Source of the DNA: a virus
DNA length: 49,740 nt
Virus record (IMG/VR): IMGVR_UViG_3300025141_011101
Coordinates: 1-49,740 of that record
Strand: one strand, 5' to 3'
Positions 497 to 14,091 of the stretch are shown in pieces. The notes under the pieces were generated by a model. That model did not search any database. It was not told the origin of the DNA and saw only the letters and a program-made list of their open reading frames with translations. How positions within the stretch are numbered: position 1 is the first letter of the stretch; the number at the start of each line of letters is the position of its first letter. A program made the position numbers and the translations under genes.

Positions 497-742
497 TTAG
501 CCCTCTGATTTTTTTTCTAATTCGTTTTGTAATTCCCTGACTTCCAATTCGAGATCATCAACATAGATTGTCAGATCTTCGACTTTCTTATGCAAATGTT
601 CAACCTCTTGCTCACATTCTTCCACAATGGCATCAACAAATTCTTGCTGTTCCATGTCGAGTGTCAGATAATGTTCTGGAAAGTTGACTTCGTTTTTTGT
701 ATGATAAGATATTGATTCGTAGATTTCTTCAATCGTCATCAT
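497..742 (-). CDS. Small acidic coiled-coil protein, function unknown
   Basis: This 81-residue protein starts at an ATGATG preceded by AGGAGGGGAC, a strong ribosome site. The C-terminal half (about 35-78) is rich in Glu, Leu and Lys with heptad-like spacing, so a coiled coil is likely. It overlaps the end of the upstream nucleotidyltransferase gene by 14 bases and its TAA abuts the ATG of the polymerase III alpha gene, so the three are probably co-translated. I recognise no family. A role as a small partner of the polymerase is possible only by position. Confidence 0.7.
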   Translation of the reverse strand: MMTIEEIYESISYHTKNEVNFPEHYLTLDMEQQEFVDAIVEECEQEVEHLHKKVEDLTIYVDDLELEVRELQNELEKKSEG

Positions 743-1628
743 TGTCCCCTCCTATTGGGTTGAATTCATGATAGTGTAATATTCTCTTGCTTGGGCGTTT
801 TACTTCCTTTCGTTCTTCTGATGATATATAATAACAGTATTCTTCCCAATTGTCAAGATTAAAATACCAAGGAACCTCAAGTTTTTTATCTTCTTCTTTT
901 ATCGAAGCTATTCCAAAGACATCCTCTAGTTTGAAGAATCTTGCTGAATACCTATCTTCCATTGGTAATGTTTCGCTCTTGACTCCGGGACCACCTGTTT
1001 TCCATTTTCCTGTTGCTTGTTCTCGCAAATGATCTCTGAACCTTTTGAAATCCTCACCTGTGAAGGTGAAAGAAAGATACTTACCATTTATAACAGATTC
1101 TCCGTTGTATGTCAAGAAAAAGCCGTTTTTATTTGAAATATCTTTTCTATGTTCTCGGACGATCCAAGGCTGGTATATTCCATAGGGAAATGCAGCATAA
1201 TATTTAGTTGGTGAAACCCATTTGCTTATCATATGGGCTGTTTTGTAAGCGGTGAGTGCTCCGTACAGGACGCTCCAAGATAAACAATCTCTTTTGTCTT
1301 TATCTCTCACTCTTATCGGGACATAGAAGATAGGGATTTGTTTCTTGCTTTCGGAAGGGAATGTGTCCATATGTCGGTATTCCCAAACTGGATCGCTTGC
1401 CCAATCCCCTATTCTATGCCTGATTAGTGGCTGCATATCATCGTGACAAACAACCCAAATCGTTTCACACCCAGCATAGGCACATTCAACGACTGCCCTC
1501 TCAATAGCAAGATAATTCTGGGCAATCGGCATTAGTGCATCGTGCCAAGGCATATTGAAATCCAAGTCTTGACCAGCAACAGGTATGATGCCTGCAAGAT
1601 GGAATTTAGCTGTTACTAGTGTTTCCAT
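729..1628 (-). CDS. Nucleotidyltransferase-like protein (GT-A / sugar-nucleotide pyrophosphorylase type)
   Basis: About 299 residues. The N terminus reads HLAGIIPVAGQDLDFNMPWH followed by DALMPIAQNYLAIERAVVECAYAG and ETIWVVCHDDMQP, the layout of a nucleotide-sugar pyrophosphorylase (nucleotide loop, sugar or acceptor part, then a strand with an acidic pair). The canonical GGxGTRLxPLT loop is not intact, so substrate and activity are uncertain. The open frame can be extended three codons to a TTG at 1637, but the ATG at 1626-1628 is the simpler start. It overlaps the end of the FeoA-like gene by 23 bases, so coupling is likely. Similar proteins of unknown role occur in aquatic phages (from memory). 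It may activate a metabolite made by the decarboxylase cassette upstream; that is inference. Confidence 0.6.
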   Translation of the reverse strand: METLVTAKFHLAGIIPVAGQDLDFNMPWHDALMPIAQNYLAIERAVVECAYAGCETIWVVCHDDMQPLIRHRIGDWASDPVWEYRHMDTFPSESKKQIPIFYVPIRVRDKDKRDCLSWSVLYGALTAYKTAHMISKWVSPTKYYAAFPYGIYQPWIVREHRKDISNKNGFFLTYNGESVINGKYLSFTFTGEDFKRFRDHLREQATGKWKTGGPGVKSETLPMEDRYSARFFKLEDVFGIASIKEEDKKLEVPWYFNLDNWEEYCYYISSEERKEVKRPSKRILHYHEFNPIGGDNDDD

Positions 1629-1839
1629 TCGTCTCAACCATAATCTTCCGTGCCTCGCTTAGGCGCAGAGCCCATACGCAGTCACCCATTCTCACAGCAA
1701 TGGGGTCGCCAAGAGGAGAAACCATACAAACCTTGACTCCTTCTCCTCGCAGGAAACCTCGGACAGCCATTTGTTCTCCGGGACAAGAAGTGATGATTCC
1801 ATTCTCATTTATTTTCATTTCATTTAGTGGTATAATCAT
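1606..1839 (-). CDS. FeoA-domain-like small protein
   Basis: A 77-residue protein whose middle matches the FeoA (SH3-like) signature: an RGFLRGEGVKVCMVSPLGDPIAV segment, then ALRLSEARKI near residues 54-66. In FeoA the equivalent is a small beta barrel with a PLGDPI-like strand followed by LALRxxEAxxI. In bacteria FeoA works with the iron transporter FeoB, and the same fold closes DtxR-type regulators. No FeoB is visible here. The gene overlaps its upstream neighbour by 20 bases and its downstream neighbour by 23, so it is embedded in a coupled cassette. It could be a stand-alone SH3-like adaptor rather than an iron protein. Confidence 0.65.
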   Translation of the reverse strand: MIIPLNEMKINENGIITSCPGEQMAVRGFLRGEGVKVCMVSPLGDPIAVRMGDCVWALRLSEARKIMVETNGNTSNS

Positions 1840-2758
1840 TTATCTTTGAGTTTAGGCTGTGTATATATTGTTCTTTTTCAATTGGAAAATTTTGAACAAT
1901 ATCTTCTTCACTTTCATACATGAATTCTATATTATCTATATCTTCATATAAATTTTTCTGAAGAGAAATTACTTCCCTCCTTTGAGGCTCTATCTTTAGA
2001 GCATAATATTTATATTTTTCTTTGTTCTTCTGATCTCTTCCGTTTCGTCTTCCACGGATGCCTGCCTCTTTCATTATATTGAGTATTTTAAATTTTGCGT
2101 ATGTATCAGAGTATTCATAATCATGAAGTTGTTTTTCAGATAAATAAGAGACAGAAACAAGGTCTTTTCTGTTTGGTTGATAACCGTCCACCCTTTCTGT
2201 CGGATAGAAAAACATTTCTCTTACAAAATTGTCGTCGGTCTCGAAGTATTGATATGGATGGGTCGTACAACAAGTTACATCCACCCAATCCAGCACTTTG
2301 CACATCTTTTCATTTAAACTTTCTAATGGTACAGGGAGACCTGTAATATTCTTATCATCGAAAACAAAAAGCTGATCAAACTTAATCTTGATCATTCGCG
2401 ACGAATCGGTTACAATGTTTAATAAACTATCATCTTTGAGACGAATAGAGCCAACTTTGTCTGACAAAGGGCACAAACCAGCAAGAGCCAAAACAAAAAC
2501 AAGGTGTCTATATACTTCCGTTTTATAATTTCCAAAAACTTTTTCATTTTCTTTTCCTTTTAATGTTGTTTTATCGTTTATAATATTTAGTGAAGATAGG
2601 TCAAAATCTGTATCAAAATAATCAAACCTGAATGGAAACTCTTGTTTGTTAATTATAAGTGGAAACCCATTGAGATAGGAAAAGGCAGCGGCATTCAAGC
2701 CACTGCCAATTACTAGGTTTTCTACCTCATATATGTGCTTTTCAAGATTGTTCTGCAT
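1820..2758 (-). CDS. Rossmann-type (dinucleotide-binding-like) protein, function unknown
   Basis: 312 residues. The start reads VENLVIGSGLNAAAFSYLNGFPLIINK: a beta strand, a GxGxxA turn and a helix, typical of an FAD- or NAD-binding Rossmann unit, at residues 11-37. The rest is not a family I can name; there is a CC pair near residue 163 and a basic GIRGRRNGRDQKNKEKYKYY stretch near 232. Its ATG follows directly on the TGA of the decarboxylase-like gene and its stop lies inside the FeoA-like gene, so the four genes form one unit. A flavoenzyme or UDP-galactopyranose-mutase-like fold is possible. The call rests on the N-terminal motif only. Confidence 0.5.
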   Translation of the reverse strand: MQNNLEKHIYEVENLVIGSGLNAAAFSYLNGFPLIINKQEFPFRFDYFDTDFDLSSLNIINDKTTLKGKENEKVFGNYKTEVYRHLVFVLALAGLCPLSDKVGSIRLKDDSLLNIVTDSSRMIKIKFDQLFVFDDKNITGLPVPLESLNEKMCKVLDWVDVTCCTTHPYQYFETDDNFVREMFFYPTERVDGYQPNRKDLVSVSYLSEKQLHDYEYSDTYAKFKILNIMKEAGIRGRRNGRDQKNKEKYKYYALKIEPQRREVISLQKNLYEDIDNIEFMYESEEDIVQNFPIEKEQYIHSLNSKINDYTTK

Positions 2759-3949
2759 TCACAAATTTGTTTCATCCGGAAAAAATATTGGGACAATCTT
2801 TATAATCATATCTGTAATGTTATTTCCCTGTCGCGACAGGCTGACCTTTTCGTCACGATAAACAACCTCTGATGGCATAGGGCGTAAATTATAGTTGCTT
2901 CCCATGGAGTAGCAATAAGCCCCAGCATTGTGGATTGCCAAAGTGTCTCCCAGCTTTATTTCGTTTATTTCTCTTTCTGTCGCGAAGTTGTCGCCTGTTT
3001 CGCAGATGTTCCCCACCACATCGTATGCCTTCTTTTCTCCATCTGGATTGGAAAGGTTCGTGATATGATGGTAGGCTCCGTATAGAACCGGGCGAATAAG
3101 TTGAGACATTCCTGAGTTTACGCCGACTATTGTTTTGTTTTTTGTTTCTTTAATATCTGTTACTTCGACTAGGAGATGTCCGGACTCAGCAACAAGATAC
3201 TTGCCCGGTTCAACGTGAATTTCAAACTCATCCGGGATCATCCTTCTTAGTGCCTTGCCCACGCTCTCAATGTCGATTGACTCTTGACCCTCTTTGTAGG
3301 GAACGCCGATACCTCCACCGACATTGACAAACTTCAAATCAGGAAAGAGGTCAATCAAGGCTGTTAGGAAGATAATCCCCTGATAGAACTCATCTTCGTC
3401 AGATAGCCCAGAGCCAGTGTGCTGGTGGATACCCACTACTTTTACATCGTAGTTTTTAATTATTCTTTTAACTTCAGGCATATCAGATAAGCGAATACCA
3501 AACTTGGAATCTGGTCCGGCTGTGGCTGTGTACTCATGGTCGCCTGCAACCACTTCTGGATTAAAACGCAAACAAACCTCTGTTGAGGGATGTGTGGCAG
3601 CAAACCTTTCCAATTGACCAACAGAGCCAAAGTTTATCAAAATTCCCTTTTTGTGAATCTCTTCTATCTCTCTTTGTGTTGAGTTGTTCGCCGTATATAA
3701 AATGTCTTTCGAACTGAAACCGATACGAAGAGCAAGCAGAACATCGCCCAAACTTACCGCATCGATGCCTGCGCCGCGCTTCAAGAGGGCTTTGAGAATC
3801 GAAGGGTTGTAGTTCGCTTTCATAGCATAAAGAACTTTTGAGTTACTTATGCTATTTTTGAGTAGATCGTACCTCTCATCAATTAGGTCTAAGTCATAAC
3901 AATATAAAGGAGACCCATACTTGTCAACAAGGTTTTTAAAATTTTTCAC
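2759..3949 (-). CDS. lysA: Diaminopimelate-decarboxylase-like PLP enzyme (fold type III)
   Basis: 396 residues, close to the normal length of the DAP/ornithine/arginine decarboxylase family. The PLP lysine is K44 in YAMKANYN. HQHTGSG (175-181) and GGGIG (211-215) match the phosphate-binding loops, EPGK (247-250) the EPGR motif, CETGD (316-320) the active-site Cys of the second subunit, and YCYSMGSNYN (345-354) the C-terminal substrate region. All catalytic positions I can check are present, so an active enzyme is likely. DAP decarboxylase makes lysine; related enzymes act on other diamino acids. In a phage it may supply lysine or a diamine, or modify another amino-acid-bearing molecule. It heads the cassette that continues to 729. 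Confidence 0.85.
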   Translation of the reverse strand: MKNFKNLVDKYGSPLYCYDLDLIDERYDLLKNSISNSKVLYAMKANYNPSILKALLKRGAGIDAVSLGDVLLALRIGFSSKDILYTANNSTQREIEEIHKKGILINFGSVGQLERFAATHPSTEVCLRFNPEVVAGDHEYTATAGPDSKFGIRLSDMPEVKRIIKNYDVKVVGIHQHTGSGLSDEDEFYQGIIFLTALIDLFPDLKFVNVGGGIGVPYKEGQESIDIESVGKALRRMIPDEFEIHVEPGKYLVAESGHLLVEVTDIKETKNKTIVGVNSGMSQLIRPVLYGAYHHITNLSNPDGEKKAYDVVGNICETGDNFATEREINEIKLGDTLAIHNAGAYCYSMGSNYNLRPMPSEVVYRDEKVSLSRQGNNITDMIIKIVPIFFPDETNL

Positions 3950-3965
3950 TATAACCTCAAGTTAT

Positions 3966-4667
3966 TTATTTTAATATTTTCCTAGCAATACTTTTTACCG
4001 CCATTCTCTGAAGCCTTGGAAGTTTTTCGTAAGTATCCAACCCTTCAGCAAAAGCCATTGGTCGGTTCCTAACTTTAGTCATAAATTCTGCTTCTTTGCC
4101 AAAAGTTGCAGATCCGAGATCAACCTTGCTTCCGTATCCGGGGAATTCAGCATTATTCGTTCCATAAAGAAACGCTCCTTCGGCTCCCTTCGGAATGAGC
4201 ATCACAGAATCTTGACAATACTTTTGCCCAAGGGGAATTATACTATCAAAGAATTCGGAACTTGGAATGTCTTTGAGGTTTACAACGAAAAAACTATCCT
4301 CTGCAGACGGTTCGTATGCTGCTGGCGTATTGAAGTGTTCTATATAGGAGCCGTCCACTGCCGTGATACCATAGCCCATACTCAACAATGCTGCCTTGAG
4401 ATCCCGATTTCTCCTCTTGTTTGTTTGGAGAGGTGTGTTCTCGTCTTCAGCGGCACCTACTTCTGCTGCATCAGTGCAGTTTGAGTCATCAGAGGGTTTC
4501 CCCCTGAAAGCCGTAACAATAGCTGTGTCGTGAGCATTCATGTGTCCTAAAAGCCGTGATAATGATGATTCAGTCAACATGCCCGGACTTGAAAGAAGCA
4601 TTGAATCTTCTGTCTTTGCCTCCTTCAGGCTTTGCCTAACTAATTTTTTTAACTCTTTGATATCCAT
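3966..4667 (-). CDS. Conserved phage protein of unknown function
   Basis: 233 residues, starting at an ATG ten bases after AGGAG. I recall the pattern LSRLLGHMNAHDTAIVTAFR, later RNRDLKAALLSMGYG, then QDSVMLIPKG and FPGYGSKVDLGSATFGKEAEFM, from a conserved but uncharacterised family seen in many T4-like phages; it resembles DUF3293-type proteins, but this is from memory and unconfirmed. The N terminus (MDIKELKKLVRQSLKEA) is an amphipathic helix like that found at the start of many proteins of such phages. It lies between groES and the decarboxylase cassette with short gaps on both sides. Confidence 0.7.
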   Translation of the reverse strand: MDIKELKKLVRQSLKEAKTEDSMLLSSPGMLTESSLSRLLGHMNAHDTAIVTAFRGKPSDDSNCTDAAEVGAAEDENTPLQTNKRRNRDLKAALLSMGYGITAVDGSYIEHFNTPAAYEPSAEDSFFVVNLKDIPSSEFFDSIIPLGQKYCQDSVMLIPKGAEGAFLYGTNNAEFPGYGSKVDLGSATFGKEAEFMTKVRNRPMAFAEGLDTYEKLPRLQRMAVKSIARKILK

Positions 4668-4679
4668 CCATTTTTTCTC

Positions 4680-5018
4680 CTATTGGGTATATTTTTCAGT
4701 GTCAATTCCGCAGAGACCATCGGTTTCTTGCTTCTCGTGCCCTTCGAGGACGCCCAGAACATAATTCTCTAGTATTAAATAGAAAGTTTCTCCCTCAAAG
4801 TTAATTTCATTTAACATTGAGCGCTCAATGACAATAATTTCCCCCTTATCACAGTCCACAATGCATTCAGGAGCCAGTCCAATTACTCTCGCTGCCATAT
4901 ACGAACTCTGTTGTGGTTTATAACTGTCTGGCAATAGAACTCCTGTTTCTTGTTTCTCTTCTTCTTTTTCTGGTAGTGGCTTTACATGTAGGTGTCTATT
5001 TGCTGGCATTAAATTCAT
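4680..5018 (-). CDS. groES: GroES-like co-chaperonin (gp31-type)
   Basis: 112 residues from an ATG with AGGAGG five bases upstream. RHLHVKPLPEKEEEKQETGVLLPDSYK (residues 8-34) matches the first strands and start of the mobile loop of GroES (RPLxDRVxVKxLxxExxTxGGIxLP), and the C-terminal part ends in a short strand after FEGETFYLILENYVLGVLEG. Phage GroES proteins such as T4 gp31 replace the host lid of GroEL so that the chamber can fold the major capsid protein. The match to chromosomal GroES is partial, as expected for gp31-type proteins. It lies nine bases after the RNR gene, so it is expressed with replication genes. Confidence 0.75.
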   Translation of the reverse strand: MNLMPANRHLHVKPLPEKEEEKQETGVLLPDSYKPQQSSYMAARVIGLAPECIVDCDKGEIIVIERSMLNEINFEGETFYLILENYVLGVLEGHEKQETDGLCGIDTEKYTQ

Positions 5019-5027
5019 CTTTTCCTC

Positions 5028-7004
5028 CTATATTTCACAATAATCGCCGTCACAGAACTTGGTTCCCTTTCCGGCTTCATTTATCTTAATTCTCTGAATT
5101 GGGGTAGTGCCCTCTGACATCTCTTCATACTGTTTTTTCGTAATTGGCTCATATGGTGCTTGTACATAGCCAGTCTCTTCATATCTTAGAAACGAAACTG
5201 CCTTTAGTCTTGTCTCATACATTTCCAGAGCAGATTTAATATCTCTTGCTTCCTCGGGTTTAAATGTGCAAGTTATGCTGACTGAGTTGTCTGCCCAGAA
5301 GTGCTGATATTGAGCAGCAATCTCAAGCTGTTCCCAAATACTAATATCCTTTTTCCCCTTCTCGTAGTAGGGCTCATGAACTGGGAATTCTACAACCTTT
5401 GTATTGGGAGAGTAGCTGTCATCTTCGATCTTATATCCGTGTTTCTCGATATCGGGCAAAAGCTCTGAATTGGCTGCAAACCGAATGCGACGAATATAAT
5501 ACTCTGCTTCTGGGAAGTGGATCCCCGGTGTTGAGCCATTTAGAAGAGAAACTGTTCCAGATGGCTTGATACTTGTCGTTCGCACTGAGCGAGGGACGCA
5601 TAGCCAATCTGAATAGCCCTTGTCTAACTTCTTTACCTCTTCGTAAGCATTGTCACACCAGTTTAAAAGTTCTCTTCGTCCGTGCTTATTAAATGCTTGA
5701 ATCACACCGGACTGTGAAAGTCCAATGCGACGGTTTTTGAGCATAATGGCATTTGTCTCGGGCCAATGCGTATTGACCAGAGTGACTGTTTTGCCATACA
5801 TATAAGCAATTTTCAGAGTTTTCAGGTAATCTTCATAATCCTCGTGTTTCGCTGGAAATGTTTCAACGAGACAGCAAAGTTCAGCATCTTCAAGCTGTTG
5901 TTCTACACAAGGGTTGAATCCAGCCACGTTGATGTCATCGTCCCTGTATCCATCCTTCATTCTGCCACGAGTTCGAGCATTATCAAGCCAGATGTAACCG
6001 GGCTCTCCGTTTTTCTGTGATTGCTCAGCGTGCCAAGTGTAGTCCATCCCAACCTTGGCGTGAAATGAATTGTTTGATCCCCAACGATGTGAGTAAAGCT
6101 TCTTTTCATCGTTCTTCATCGATAGGTAATCCATATCGTCAAACTCACCCAGAGCCAGTGCTGCAGAGCGCCGAACATTGCCTGCGACAACGCACTTGCC
6201 AATGAGATTTTCTGTATCAACGATGGTTGTTGAGCGGATTTCTTTCCCTATCCTCTCATCATAAAGTTCTTTGAGGTTATCGTGCATCTCTTTGAGGGGC
6301 TTATGACCAGAAGAAGTTCCCCCGAAGCCCTTGATTTCAGCACCGTAGGGACGAATTTTGCTGTAGTCAAACTTGGGAACCTTTTGTCCAAAGTAATAGC
6401 CATCAAGAAGGATTTGTACTGTTTCGCACCAACCCTCGCGGTCATCTGGGACAAAATAGACTTCATCTGTCCATTCTGGCTCCTTTATTGTGAGCTTTCT
6501 GGATCCAAGGGTATCAAAACCAACACCGACACCGAGCATCAGGGCGTCCATAATCCAACGGAACAAATATCCGCCTTTTGTGTCAATTTCCCTTGTTGAT
6601 CGGAAAGAACAGTTGAAGAGACCTGCGCCTGTGCGCTCATCGACAAACTTTGTGCCCATCATCCACAGACCGCGACCGGGGGGAGTCCACTTTAGGTGGA
6701 ATAACCTGTCGTATGCGTCTTTTGCTGTTTTTTGAGCTTTGGCATCATTCCATTCTAGACCAAGATGAAAGACATGCTTCTTTTGAATCGTAAACATACC
6801 TTCAATAACACGGCGACAAGTTTGAAACCACTCTTCTGTGCCTTCTACACCGGGTTCGAATTCAGCTAGCTTTCTAGCATACGTCCTCTTATAAGTAATG
6901 TATCCAATCGGACCCCAAGGTACTTCTTTGTCCCTATATTGATCGATAAAGACCTCCGACAATTTAAACCTTCTTACTGTCTGTTGCTGTGGATCAAAAC
7001 TCAT
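5028..7004 (-). CDS. nrdJ: Adenosylcobalamin-dependent (class II) ribonucleotide reductase
   Basis: 658 residues, of the monomeric ribonucleoside-triphosphate reductase type. C132 in GLFNCSFRS and C377/C378 in ELCCLVE fit the active-site reducing pair, and C366 in FNPCVE fits the thiyl cysteine with E368 as the catalytic acid. The C terminus ends in CDGDYC (651-656), the redox pair that is re-reduced by thioredoxin-like proteins. WTPPGRGLWMMGT (106-118) and RRIRFAANSELLPDIEKHGY are typical of the RTPR subfamily. The enzyme makes dNTPs for phage replication and needs vitamin B12 coenzyme, which the host must make or import. Its ATG overlaps the helicase stop (ATGA). Confidence 0.93.
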   Translation of the reverse strand: MSFDPQQQTVRRFKLSEVFIDQYRDKEVPWGPIGYITYKRTYARKLAEFEPGVEGTEEWFQTCRRVIEGMFTIQKKHVFHLGLEWNDAKAQKTAKDAYDRLFHLKWTPPGRGLWMMGTKFVDERTGAGLFNCSFRSTREIDTKGGYLFRWIMDALMLGVGVGFDTLGSRKLTIKEPEWTDEVYFVPDDREGWCETVQILLDGYYFGQKVPKFDYSKIRPYGAEIKGFGGTSSGHKPLKEMHDNLKELYDERIGKEIRSTTIVDTENLIGKCVVAGNVRRSAALALGEFDDMDYLSMKNDEKKLYSHRWGSNNSFHAKVGMDYTWHAEQSQKNGEPGYIWLDNARTRGRMKDGYRDDDINVAGFNPCVEQQLEDAELCCLVETFPAKHEDYEDYLKTLKIAYMYGKTVTLVNTHWPETNAIMLKNRRIGLSQSGVIQAFNKHGRRELLNWCDNAYEEVKKLDKGYSDWLCVPRSVRTTSIKPSGTVSLLNGSTPGIHFPEAEYYIRRIRFAANSELLPDIEKHGYKIEDDSYSPNTKVVEFPVHEPYYEKGKKDISIWEQLEIAAQYQHFWADNSVSITCTFKPEEARDIKSALEMYETRLKAVSFLRYEETGYVQAPYEPITKKQYEEMSEGTTPIQRIKINEAGKGTKFCDGDYCEI

Positions 7005-12046: not shown

Positions 12047-12925
12047 CTACTGTACCACATCATCTTCTAATTGTAAAGATTTTTTTTCATTTTCTCGAAA
12101 TTGTATAAATGAACTGTTAGCAATGCAATAAACATAATCATCGGAATAATCAGTAGAGAAAATTCCATAGGATACTTTTACATCATTTTCCATTTTAATA
12201 TTTTCAGTTATTTTTTTCATCAAATTTCCATCTGTCTCAAGCTTATTTTTATTTATAGCATAATAATACCTTATTTCTTTGATGTTGTCAAGAAAAAAGA
12301 ATAATTTTTTTTCATTTTCTAAATTTGATATTCCAATTGTGGAAATTCTAGCAATCTCATTTGGTTGAACAAAATTATCCACAACCGATTCGTTGTTATT
12401 ATAAACATTGACCATATGGAATGTCGAAACAATCAATTTATTTAGTTTATCATAATAACCAATAATTGGTATGTTGTCAAGAATTTTTTCAACTTGAGGA
12501 TTAGAAACAATATATAATCTTTCCAAAAGCCCAGATCTGGCGTATTCTTGCAAAATGTAGTATAGCGCTCGTTCTTGAAGTTTTTTATCTCCAATGAGCA
12601 ATTCGATATCTGGTTCTATGTATAAAACATTGATTTTACAGTGTCTGATTTGTTCAAGCACTCTCAGAGCGCAGCCAGATATATTTCCCGAGCCTCCAAG
12701 AACAAACAGGACCTGTCCCCCTAAGTGTCCGAGGAAAGCTCGCAGATCAGGAGTTTGAAGCTCATATTGTTGATGTGTCTTTTGTTTCGCTATTGAGAGC
12801 GTATTTTTGTCCAAAATTCCCGTATAAACACCCTCATCAATCTTGTAAATTTGATATTGAGGATTTTTTGCGAATTCGTCGGCAATTTTACAGCCTGCCC
12901 CGCCAAGTCCGATTACAGTTTCCAT
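12047..12925 (-). CDS. Divergent tubulin/FtsZ-superfamily protein
   Basis: 292 residues. The N terminus METVIGLGGAGCKIADEF is the first strand, Gly-rich loop and helix of FtsZ (IKVxGVGGAGxNAV). At 70-90, GQVLFVLGGSGNISGCALRVL fits strand S4 and the tubulin signature loop (GGGTGSG), degenerate here (GGSGNISG). INVLYIEPDIELL, a helix with QERALYYILQEYARSGLLERLYIVSN follows, matching the FtsZ order PFxxEGxxR...GLxxLxxxVDxLIVIPN. So the GTPase half is recognisable, but the T7 NxxxxD region of FtsZ is not obvious and the C terminus is unlike FtsZ. It could bind GTP or be a non-polymerising paralogue. It overlaps the family A polymerase by 13 bases, so it is co-expressed with replication genes. Confidence 0.65.
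   Translation of the reverse strand: METVIGLGGAGCKIADEFAKNPQYQIYKIDEGVYTGILDKNTLSIAKQKTHQQYELQTPDLRAFLGHLGGQVLFVLGGSGNISGCALRVLEQIRHCKINVLYIEPDIELLIGDKKLQERALYYILQEYARSGLLERLYIVSNPQVEKILDNIPIIGYYDKLNKLIVSTFHMVNVYNNNESVVDNFVQPNEIARISTIGISNLENEKKLFFFLDNIKEIRYYYAINKNKLETDGNLMKKITENIKMENDVKVSYGIFSTDYSDDYVYCIANSSFIQFRENEKKSLQLEDDVVQ
12049..12077 (-). promoter_or_regulatory. Sigma70-like promoter for ssb
   Basis: Minus strand: TTTACA (12077-12072), 17-base spacer ending TGTGG, TACAGT (12054-12049). It lies within the 3' end of the tubulin-like gene, 30 bases before the ssb ATG. The -10 box is imperfect. Confidence 0.5.
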
Positions 12926-14091
12926 TCTTTCATTGTCCCAAAGTCTTTTCCGACATGTAAGTTTACAAGATATTCACCAAATCTTGTTTGTGAGAACATT
13001 TTAACAAGTTCTTTCAGAGAATTTAACTCATTTCTATCAAAATCAATTATTAAACTGTCGTGAATCATAAAAGCGATATTAGATTTTTTATCCTTTAAGT
13101 AATTATAAACCTTTGATACTTGTTCCAAAAATAAATCACTACTTGTGCTCTGAATAATATAATTGAAAGCATGATAATCATCTGCTTTTATCTTTCTGTT
13201 AAAAACTGTTTCGATTTCTTTTCCATTAAAGAAGTTTTCTTTTATTCTGCCTCGATCATAAAACTTTTCAGACAAATCATCTTTAGAGTTTGGATTATAC
13301 AACCAAGCAAATATTCTCTTCTTTGCCTTCTCTCTTGTCAAGATTCCCTTATAAGCATTCTTGTTATTCCACTTGTGAAGATCGATAGGTGGCTGTTCTT
13401 TTCCAAGCAACGCCAAAACAGTTCTCAGTTCAGCCGCATTGAAATCCAGTTCGAGAAAGCAGTCATTCTGAGGCTTTATCATTGTCCTCAGTTCTTTCTT
13501 TATCGTGAGGATTGGGAAACTCCCATTTATCGTCGTCAGTCTTCCTGTTTTAGTCCCAAAGATATTATAGTTGACGTAAGTGTCCGAACTTCGGACCTTT
13601 TTCAAGAGATTTCGTGTTTTCGGTGAAATAGTGACTTTCGATGCATCAATGTCGAGGTTCTGGGTCTTGATATCTGTTGCGATTTTCAGAGTGCTCAGAA
13701 GGTGGTCGTAATTCTTTGGTTTTTCATAATTTCGAAGAACATAGTCAGTTATCCTGTCCTTGATGTCACAATAAGCCATCAGATGTCTTTCTGGAACAAG
13801 ATCGAAAAAGCAATTATCCCGAAGAGACACCTTGGCTTCCATAAAAGAACGATAAAACGCCTTCATTCTTTCATTTGCTTCTTCCCATCGTTCTTTGAGA
13901 TGTTCTGGGCACACTTCTGAAAGAGTTTTGCCAGAACAATAGAGTTTAGCATATTCTATATCCCGGTCTTCAAGAAATTTAGAATAATTCCAAGTTTTTG
14001 TGAGATTATCCGGAAGTTCGTCAAATATCAACTTGCCGTCAAGATAAATGCCAATACATTCTTGTTTGTCGTCGAGTGCTTGAAAAAGCAT
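12913..14091 (-). CDS. Family A DNA polymerase, polymerase domain only
   Basis: 392 residues, much shorter than the 600-900 of Pol I or T7 polymerase. YNIFGTKTGRLTT (175-187) is the thumb-palm TGRLS motif. Motif A is ELDFNAAELR with D216, motif B is REKAKKRIFAWLY (253-265), and motif C is FMIHDSLIIDF with HDS at 344-346. The 3'-5' exonuclease domain is absent: the first 170 residues hold no DxE motif. Unless a separate subunit proofreads, it is an error-prone, primer-processing or recombination polymerase. T4-like Rhodothermus phage RM378 also splits its family A polymerase from memory. A family C polymerase starts at the left edge, so two replicases coexist. Confidence 0.88.
   Translation of the reverse strand: MLFQALDDKQECIGIYLDGKLIFDELPDNLTKTWNYSKFLEDRDIEYAKLYCSGKTLSEVCPEHLKERWEEANERMKAFYRSFMEAKVSLRDNCFFDLVPERHLMAYCDIKDRITDYVLRNYEKPKNYDHLLSTLKIATDIKTQNLDIDASKVTISPKTRNLLKKVRSSDTYVNYNIFGTKTGRLTTINGSFPILTIKKELRTMIKPQNDCFLELDFNAAELRTVLALLGKEQPPIDLHKWNNKNAYKGILTREKAKKRIFAWLYNPNSKDDLSEKFYDRGRIKENFFNGKEIETVFNRKIKADDYHAFNYIIQSTSSDLFLEQVSKVYNYLKDKKSNIAFMIHDSLIIDFDRNELNSLKELVKMFSQTRFGEYLVNLHVGKDFGTMKEWKL

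Follow-up and report, generated by a model that had tools for sequence, protein, structure and literature searches.

Four tightly joined genes on the minus strand of an uncultivated phage (positions 729–3949 of IMG/VR virus record IMGVR_UViG_3300025141_011101) raise the question of whether they encode a single pathway, as a reading made from the letters alone (the sequence-only reading) had proposed, or genes with separate histories. The window, that is, the whole stretch analyzed here, is this 49,740-base record, a fragment rather than a whole genome. Rechecking of the open reading frame (ORF) coordinates returned the four frames and their 0-, 20- and 23-nucleotide junctions as described, and the class guesses of the sequence-only reading were likewise borne out. 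In the order of transcription, the genes encode a meso-diaminopimelate (DAP) decarboxylase (lysA, positions 2759–3949, 396 aa, GTG start; TIGR01048), a Rossmann-fold flavoprotein-like protein (1820–2758, 312 aa; Foldseek), a FeoA-domain protein (feoA, 1606–1839, 77 aa; PF04023) and a nucleotidyltransferase (NTase)-like protein with a pyrophosphorylase fold (729–1637, likely starting at the ATG at 1628, 302 aa; Foldseek match to RmlA). The reading that we favor, with a probability of roughly 0.78, is that they belong to the replication-module operon of a contractile-tailed phage, in which a conserved pair, the Rossmann and NTase-like genes, has been joined by separately acquired lysA and feoA.

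This reading is carried by the distribution of the four genes. Relatives were collected with the NTase-like protein and then with its alignment, which yielded 130 loci from 124 distinct IMG/VR contigs (locus counts take in six contigs twice). A profile of the Rossmann family located the Rossmann gene upstream of the NTase gene, on the same strand and in the same order, in 119 of the 119 distinct contigs that reach far enough; in the five contigs with no Rossmann match, the NTase frame starts less than 0.9 kb from where the fetched sequence ends, which would place the Rossmann gene outside it. The two genes are within 150 nucleotides of each other in 91 contigs, and at least one gene intervenes in 28. 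Neither lysA nor feoA was detected in any of the 130 loci. Furthermore, among the 50 relatives of the first set, searched as whole records, there was no match to PF00278 and none above the cutoff to PF04023, with a sub-cutoff FeoA match in one relative. The Rossmann and NTase-like genes make up a core pair, strongly conserved in this extensive group of uncultivated phages, and their products probably act together. Because the pair persists in relatives that lack lysA and feoA, the four genes resolve into this core pair plus two separate acquisitions. Co-occurrence in related phages was the check suggested by the sequence-only reading itself, and what co-occurs is the pair, with lysA and feoA missing, an outcome that contradicts a four-gene pathway.

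The core pair produced no tblastn match among the 50,697 phage records of INPHARED, where a search with the window at the DNA level also found no relatives, and PADLOC assigned neither protein to a known defense family. A scan of viral contigs with the single Rossmann protein gave no matches; in BFVD, two unnamed viral proteins share its fold (TM-score 0.84–0.88). One of the relatives, L196 (IMGVR_UViG_2684622992_000003), has an identifier of a form unlike the metagenomic ones and may be an isolate or single-cell genome that could reveal the host.

The NTase-like protein yielded a confident AlphaFold2 model (pLDDT 85.5), which Foldseek matched to RmlA-type pyrophosphorylases (probability 1.00, E = 1.8e-7, TMq 0.51). 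Sequence support for this relationship is thin: hhalign against a pyrophosphorylase reached 46% probability over 49 columns, there was no Pfam match to PF00483 (NTP_transferase), and a sequence-profile search of PDB retrieved no relatives of either core protein. The phage protein shares with the RmlA (glucose-1-phosphate thymidylyltransferase) family the overall fold, the length and the P-hydrophobic and central-helix region, but the sugar-1-phosphate nucleotidyltransferase signature, GxGxR...K with a Mg-binding Asp, is missing. In place of the pyrophosphorylase loop the family has GxxLDFNxPWHD, with LDFNxPWHD invariant; the catalytic Lys of RmlA aligns, when the hhalign register is extended by one residue, with Asp33, which is an Asp in 33 of 33 sequences; and the strand expected to end in the Mg-binding GDN, as placed by eye, reads FPYG. 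Given the loss of the catalytic Lys and the Mg-binding Asp, synthesis of an activated amino sugar, one of the outcomes envisaged in the sequence-only reading, appears doubtful. Invariant polar residues include D26, H32, D33, E46, D112 and R164, and 9 of the 30 invariant residues fall within one 16-residue loop (p = 2e-6), a clustering that points to a ligand site that has been kept but serves a different chemistry.

For the Rossmann protein, the AlphaFold2 model is also confident (pLDDT 92.8), and Foldseek matched it to FAD-dependent oxidoreductases (E = 2e-8, TMq 0.50). Alignment of its profile with those of cellular FAD proteins by hhalign gave no signal, so that the relationship to FAD enzymes is one of fold. 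The protein has the fold of the FAD GR2 oxidoreductases, such as geranylgeranyl reductase and p-hydroxybenzoate hydroxylase, but is shorter, about 10% identical to them, and has largely lost the dinucleotide motif GxGxx(G/A) with an acidic residue at the end of strand beta-2. Within the phage family, the first Gly of the motif alone is invariant, the second is present in 3 of 36 sequences, and the acidic residue following beta-2 has been lost. The window protein retains the second Gly (GSGLNA), which is why the sequence-only reading recognized GxGxxA, and has Asn/Lys at the acidic position. The family diverges fast, down to approximately 23% identity among relatives.

The two accessory genes are more readily classified. 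Both the N- and C-terminal Orn_Arg_deC domains of the pyridoxal 5'-phosphate (PLP)-dependent decarboxylases were detected by Pfam in the lysA product, which passed the LysA equivalog model TIGR01048 (358.1 against a cutoff of 297.9), with models for ornithine/lysine, carboxynorspermidine and arginine decarboxylases scoring far below their own cutoffs; the closest solved structures are LysA enzymes (PDB 2p3e, E = 2e-66). Like other LysA proteins of the alanine-racemase fold, it is full-length and keeps the catalytic and substrate residues: the PLP-binding Lys44, the Cys and Glu of CETGD, the Arg and Tyr of RPxLY and the Tyr of the C-terminal GAY, columns common to nearly all of 80 cellular relatives. 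Its sole odd residue is in EPGK, which replaces EPGR; a change of specificity was ruled out as the explanation because EPGK is normal for the cellular clade (68 of 80). Judging by its predicted product, lysA encodes an unremarkable enzyme, and what is unusual is its location.

Identity of the phage LysA to the nearest aligned cellular relatives is 46–54%, and the tree places it, on a long branch, basal to a LysA group from DPANN archaea, Lentisphaerota, Ignavibacteriota/Bacteroidota and Thermodesulfobacteriota. In some genomes the cellular copies of this clade are found close to genes for DapF and LL-DAP aminotransferase. A scan of viral contigs with the LysA protein and alignment matched one further record, L052, which is 99.65% identical to the window over 5.5 kb; all 19 differences fall within the helicase gene, and the shared part of lysA is identical. 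Since L052 also carries the junction of lysA with the preceding S-adenosylmethionine (SAM)-lyase-family gene, lysA is not an artifact of a single assembly. The search of INPHARED with lysA returned 22 matches, each below 60% identity, several of them from records that are short or lack annotation and resemble host DNA.

The FeoA-domain protein matches PF04023 over the whole domain (46.3 bits against a gathering score of 23; 4.4e-12) but, unlike cellular FeoA, sits inside a phage replication operon, inserted between the core pair. No FeoB was seen in the pieces examined, although no search by its name was made, and a FeoA scan of viral contigs gave one weak partial match only. Our search of the open literature found no clear earlier report of phages that carry lysA or feoA as auxiliary genes.

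The surroundings of the four genes fit a replication module. The window encodes proteins characteristic of contractile-tailed phages, namely, tail sheath, portal, terminase, major head protein, a UvsX-like recombinase and a DnaB-like helicase, and nearly all of its large genes are on the minus strand. Transcription proceeds from a B12-type ribonucleotide reductase (RNR; 5028–7004, Pfam and PHROG matches) of the replication/nucleotide module through a GroES-like co-chaperonin (4680–5018; phrog_3188, 1.5e-6; homologs in 117 of 130 loci), the SAM-lyase-family protein (3966–4667, 233 aa; PF23780, 1.3e-9, 38.5 against a gathering score of 28) and the four genes to the N-terminal part of a DNA polymerase that runs off the record (2–496; phrog_405, 1.1e-21), all on the minus strand. 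A coiled-coil-like minus-strand ORF of 81 aa (497–742), with homologs in four loci, overlaps the 3' end of the NTase gene. Pieces of DNA polymerase occur at two places in the window, 12913–14091 matching the late part of one DNA polymerase PHROG and 2–496 the early part of another, which suggests a split polymerase.

The junctions do not mark out the four genes as a unit, because compactness is the rule throughout this run. The lysA and Rossmann genes abut with a 0-nucleotide gap, the Rossmann and feoA genes overlap by 20 nucleotides, and feoA and the NTase gene overlap by 32 nucleotides counted from a TTG or 23 counted from the ATG at 1628; the neighboring junctions are equally tight (RNR/helicase, 4-nucleotide overlap; GroES/RNR, 9 nucleotides; SAM-lyase-like/lysA, 16 nucleotides). 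This arrangement suggests co-transcription of the whole run.

Comparison of the related loci delineates three variable slots (A to C), between the GroES-like and Rossmann genes, between the Rossmann and NTase genes, and between the NTase and polymerase genes, with the GroES-like gene as the left border of slot A. The cargo of these slots in relatives includes cysteine-synthase-like PLP enzymes (PALP, 20 loci), ThyX (19), SLT transglycosylases (28), adenylosuccinate synthetases (10, some of them further downstream), DNA methyltransferases (15) and SAM-lyase-like proteins (25), the last in the same slot as the window gene at 3966–4667, which shares this slot with lysA. At the site of the SAM-lyase-like gene and lysA, the two nearest relatives differ: L001 encodes a DNA methyltransferase along with a GmrSD-type domain protein, and L033 an unknown protein of 164 aa. 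We propose that lysA and feoA are likewise host-derived auxiliary genes, which would have been acquired separately into the two variable slots that flank the Rossmann gene.

Several of the carried genes deserve mention in their own right. The L001 segment 4306–7288, which encodes the GmrSD-type domain protein, an unknown 287-aa protein and a DNA adenine methyltransferase, looks like a carried restriction-modification-like module. Similar small proteins with a common YARSKEI...LGH motif are encoded at L033:3966–4460 and L050:11776–12324, one of them directly before a DNA methyltransferase; they are possible endonuclease partners. In slot C of L046, a DNA methyltransferase has as its neighbor a 345-aa protein with no PADLOC match (L046:11831–12868). 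Short adenylosuccinate synthetases of 334–340 aa (L015:6091–7095, L029:7592–8614 and about eight more loci) are encoded near the core pair; they score higher with PurA than with PurZ, both under the cutoff, and seem to keep the Asp of GD(E/C)xKGK. The cysteine-synthase-like gene overlaps the 3' end of the NTase gene or lies between the pair (L019:10869–11735 and 19 further loci; L007:8877–9998, with a 90-residue N-terminal extension); the two of these proteins that were scored with NCBIfam were under the CysK/CysM cutoffs, and a 635-kb uncultured phage record encodes a cysteine-synthase-like protein that shares 53% identity with the one in L019 (LR745206.1:264332–265201).

The sequence-only reading had also raised base hypermodification of the kind found in Pseudomonas phage M6. 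In thymidine hypermodification systems, ThyA-superfamily enzymes make the hydroxymethyl base, and the M6 system includes a PLP decarboxylase, its only resemblance to the window. PF00303, the family of the ThyA-superfamily dUMP hydroxymethylases, was not found in any of 14 records, including contigs of 147–191 kb, the window record itself being a fragment. No homologs of the DNA kinase or the amino-acid:DNA transferase emerged: none of 189 M6 ORFs (from positions 1–50,000, that is, all but the last 9.4 kb of M6) matched the window, and the only protein common to these ORFs and 50 relatives was the RNR. M6-type hypermodification is therefore not supported; other kinds of modification could still be present.

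These results bear on the pathway in which LysA would supply lysine or a diamine for attachment to DNA or the virion by the Rossmann and NTase-like proteins. Such a pathway could draw on the compact junctions and on the cysteine-synthase-like PLP enzymes adjoining the NTase gene in 20 related loci, so that amino-acid PLP enzymes recur here, but the persistence of the pair where lysA and feoA are missing, the loss of the catalytic Lys and Mg-binding Asp, and the lack of a ThyA-family hydroxymethylase in the 14 records make it highly improbable. It is unlikely, too, that the core pair with its variable cargo forms a new DNA- or nucleotide-modification or anti-defense system whose slots gather anti-restriction and metabolic helpers: the adjacent polymerase, helicase and RNR genes, the methyltransferases, SAM-lyase-like proteins and GmrSD-type domain among the cargo, and the invariant polar loop of the NTase family are all in keeping with it, but nothing ties the pair directly to DNA or any known modification, and the nucleotide-binding motifs of the Rossmann family are degenerate. 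That both proteins are non-catalytic, as pseudoenzymes or as structural components of the replisome or the head, is a tentative possibility, given that the canonical catalytic and cofactor motifs are lost in both proteins and that the Rossmann protein diverges fast; the six invariant polar NTase residues argue instead for a working active site.

Some observations weigh against a conserved pair with separately acquired lysA and feoA. The feoA gene was found in the window record alone and lysA in one phage population only, in which selection on lysA cannot be measured; the long branch of lysA in the tree has no clear or close host donor; and close relatives are sparsely sampled (L001 and L033 are fragments), which leaves room for a recent linkage of all four genes in this lineage. 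Under the reading of a conserved pair with separate acquisitions, LysA would convert meso-DAP to L-lysine during infection, which might supply lysine for virion synthesis, draw DAP away from peptidoglycan, or both, and FeoA may stimulate the ferrous-iron transporter FeoB of the host. Of the lysine or diamine supply suggested in the sequence-only reading, lysine supply would thus remain the explanation that best fits the decarboxylase by itself, but not as the task of a four-gene pathway. The core pair would most likely either catalyze an altered chemistry on a nucleotide-linked substrate, as two cooperating enzymes, or reuse both folds for a purpose other than catalysis. A more specific version, which we regard as doubtful, is an undescribed two-protein enzyme system with a new active site, LDFNxPWHD, on a nucleotidyltransferase fold and a partner devoid of canonical dinucleotide binding. 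Such a system would have a nucleotide-linked substrate and operate near the replisome, and the amino-acid and nucleotide enzymes around it would be exchanged for one another.

The lysA gene of this phage replication operon is an addition to the amino-acid auxiliary genes. Of greater use is the pair of marker genes whose products have folds like those of known enzymes but have lost the catalytic signatures. If the core pair is an enzyme, it would be a new one; if not, two enzyme folds would have been put to an unusual new use next to the replication genes. The conserved pair with its altered active sites is the part of this locus worth following.

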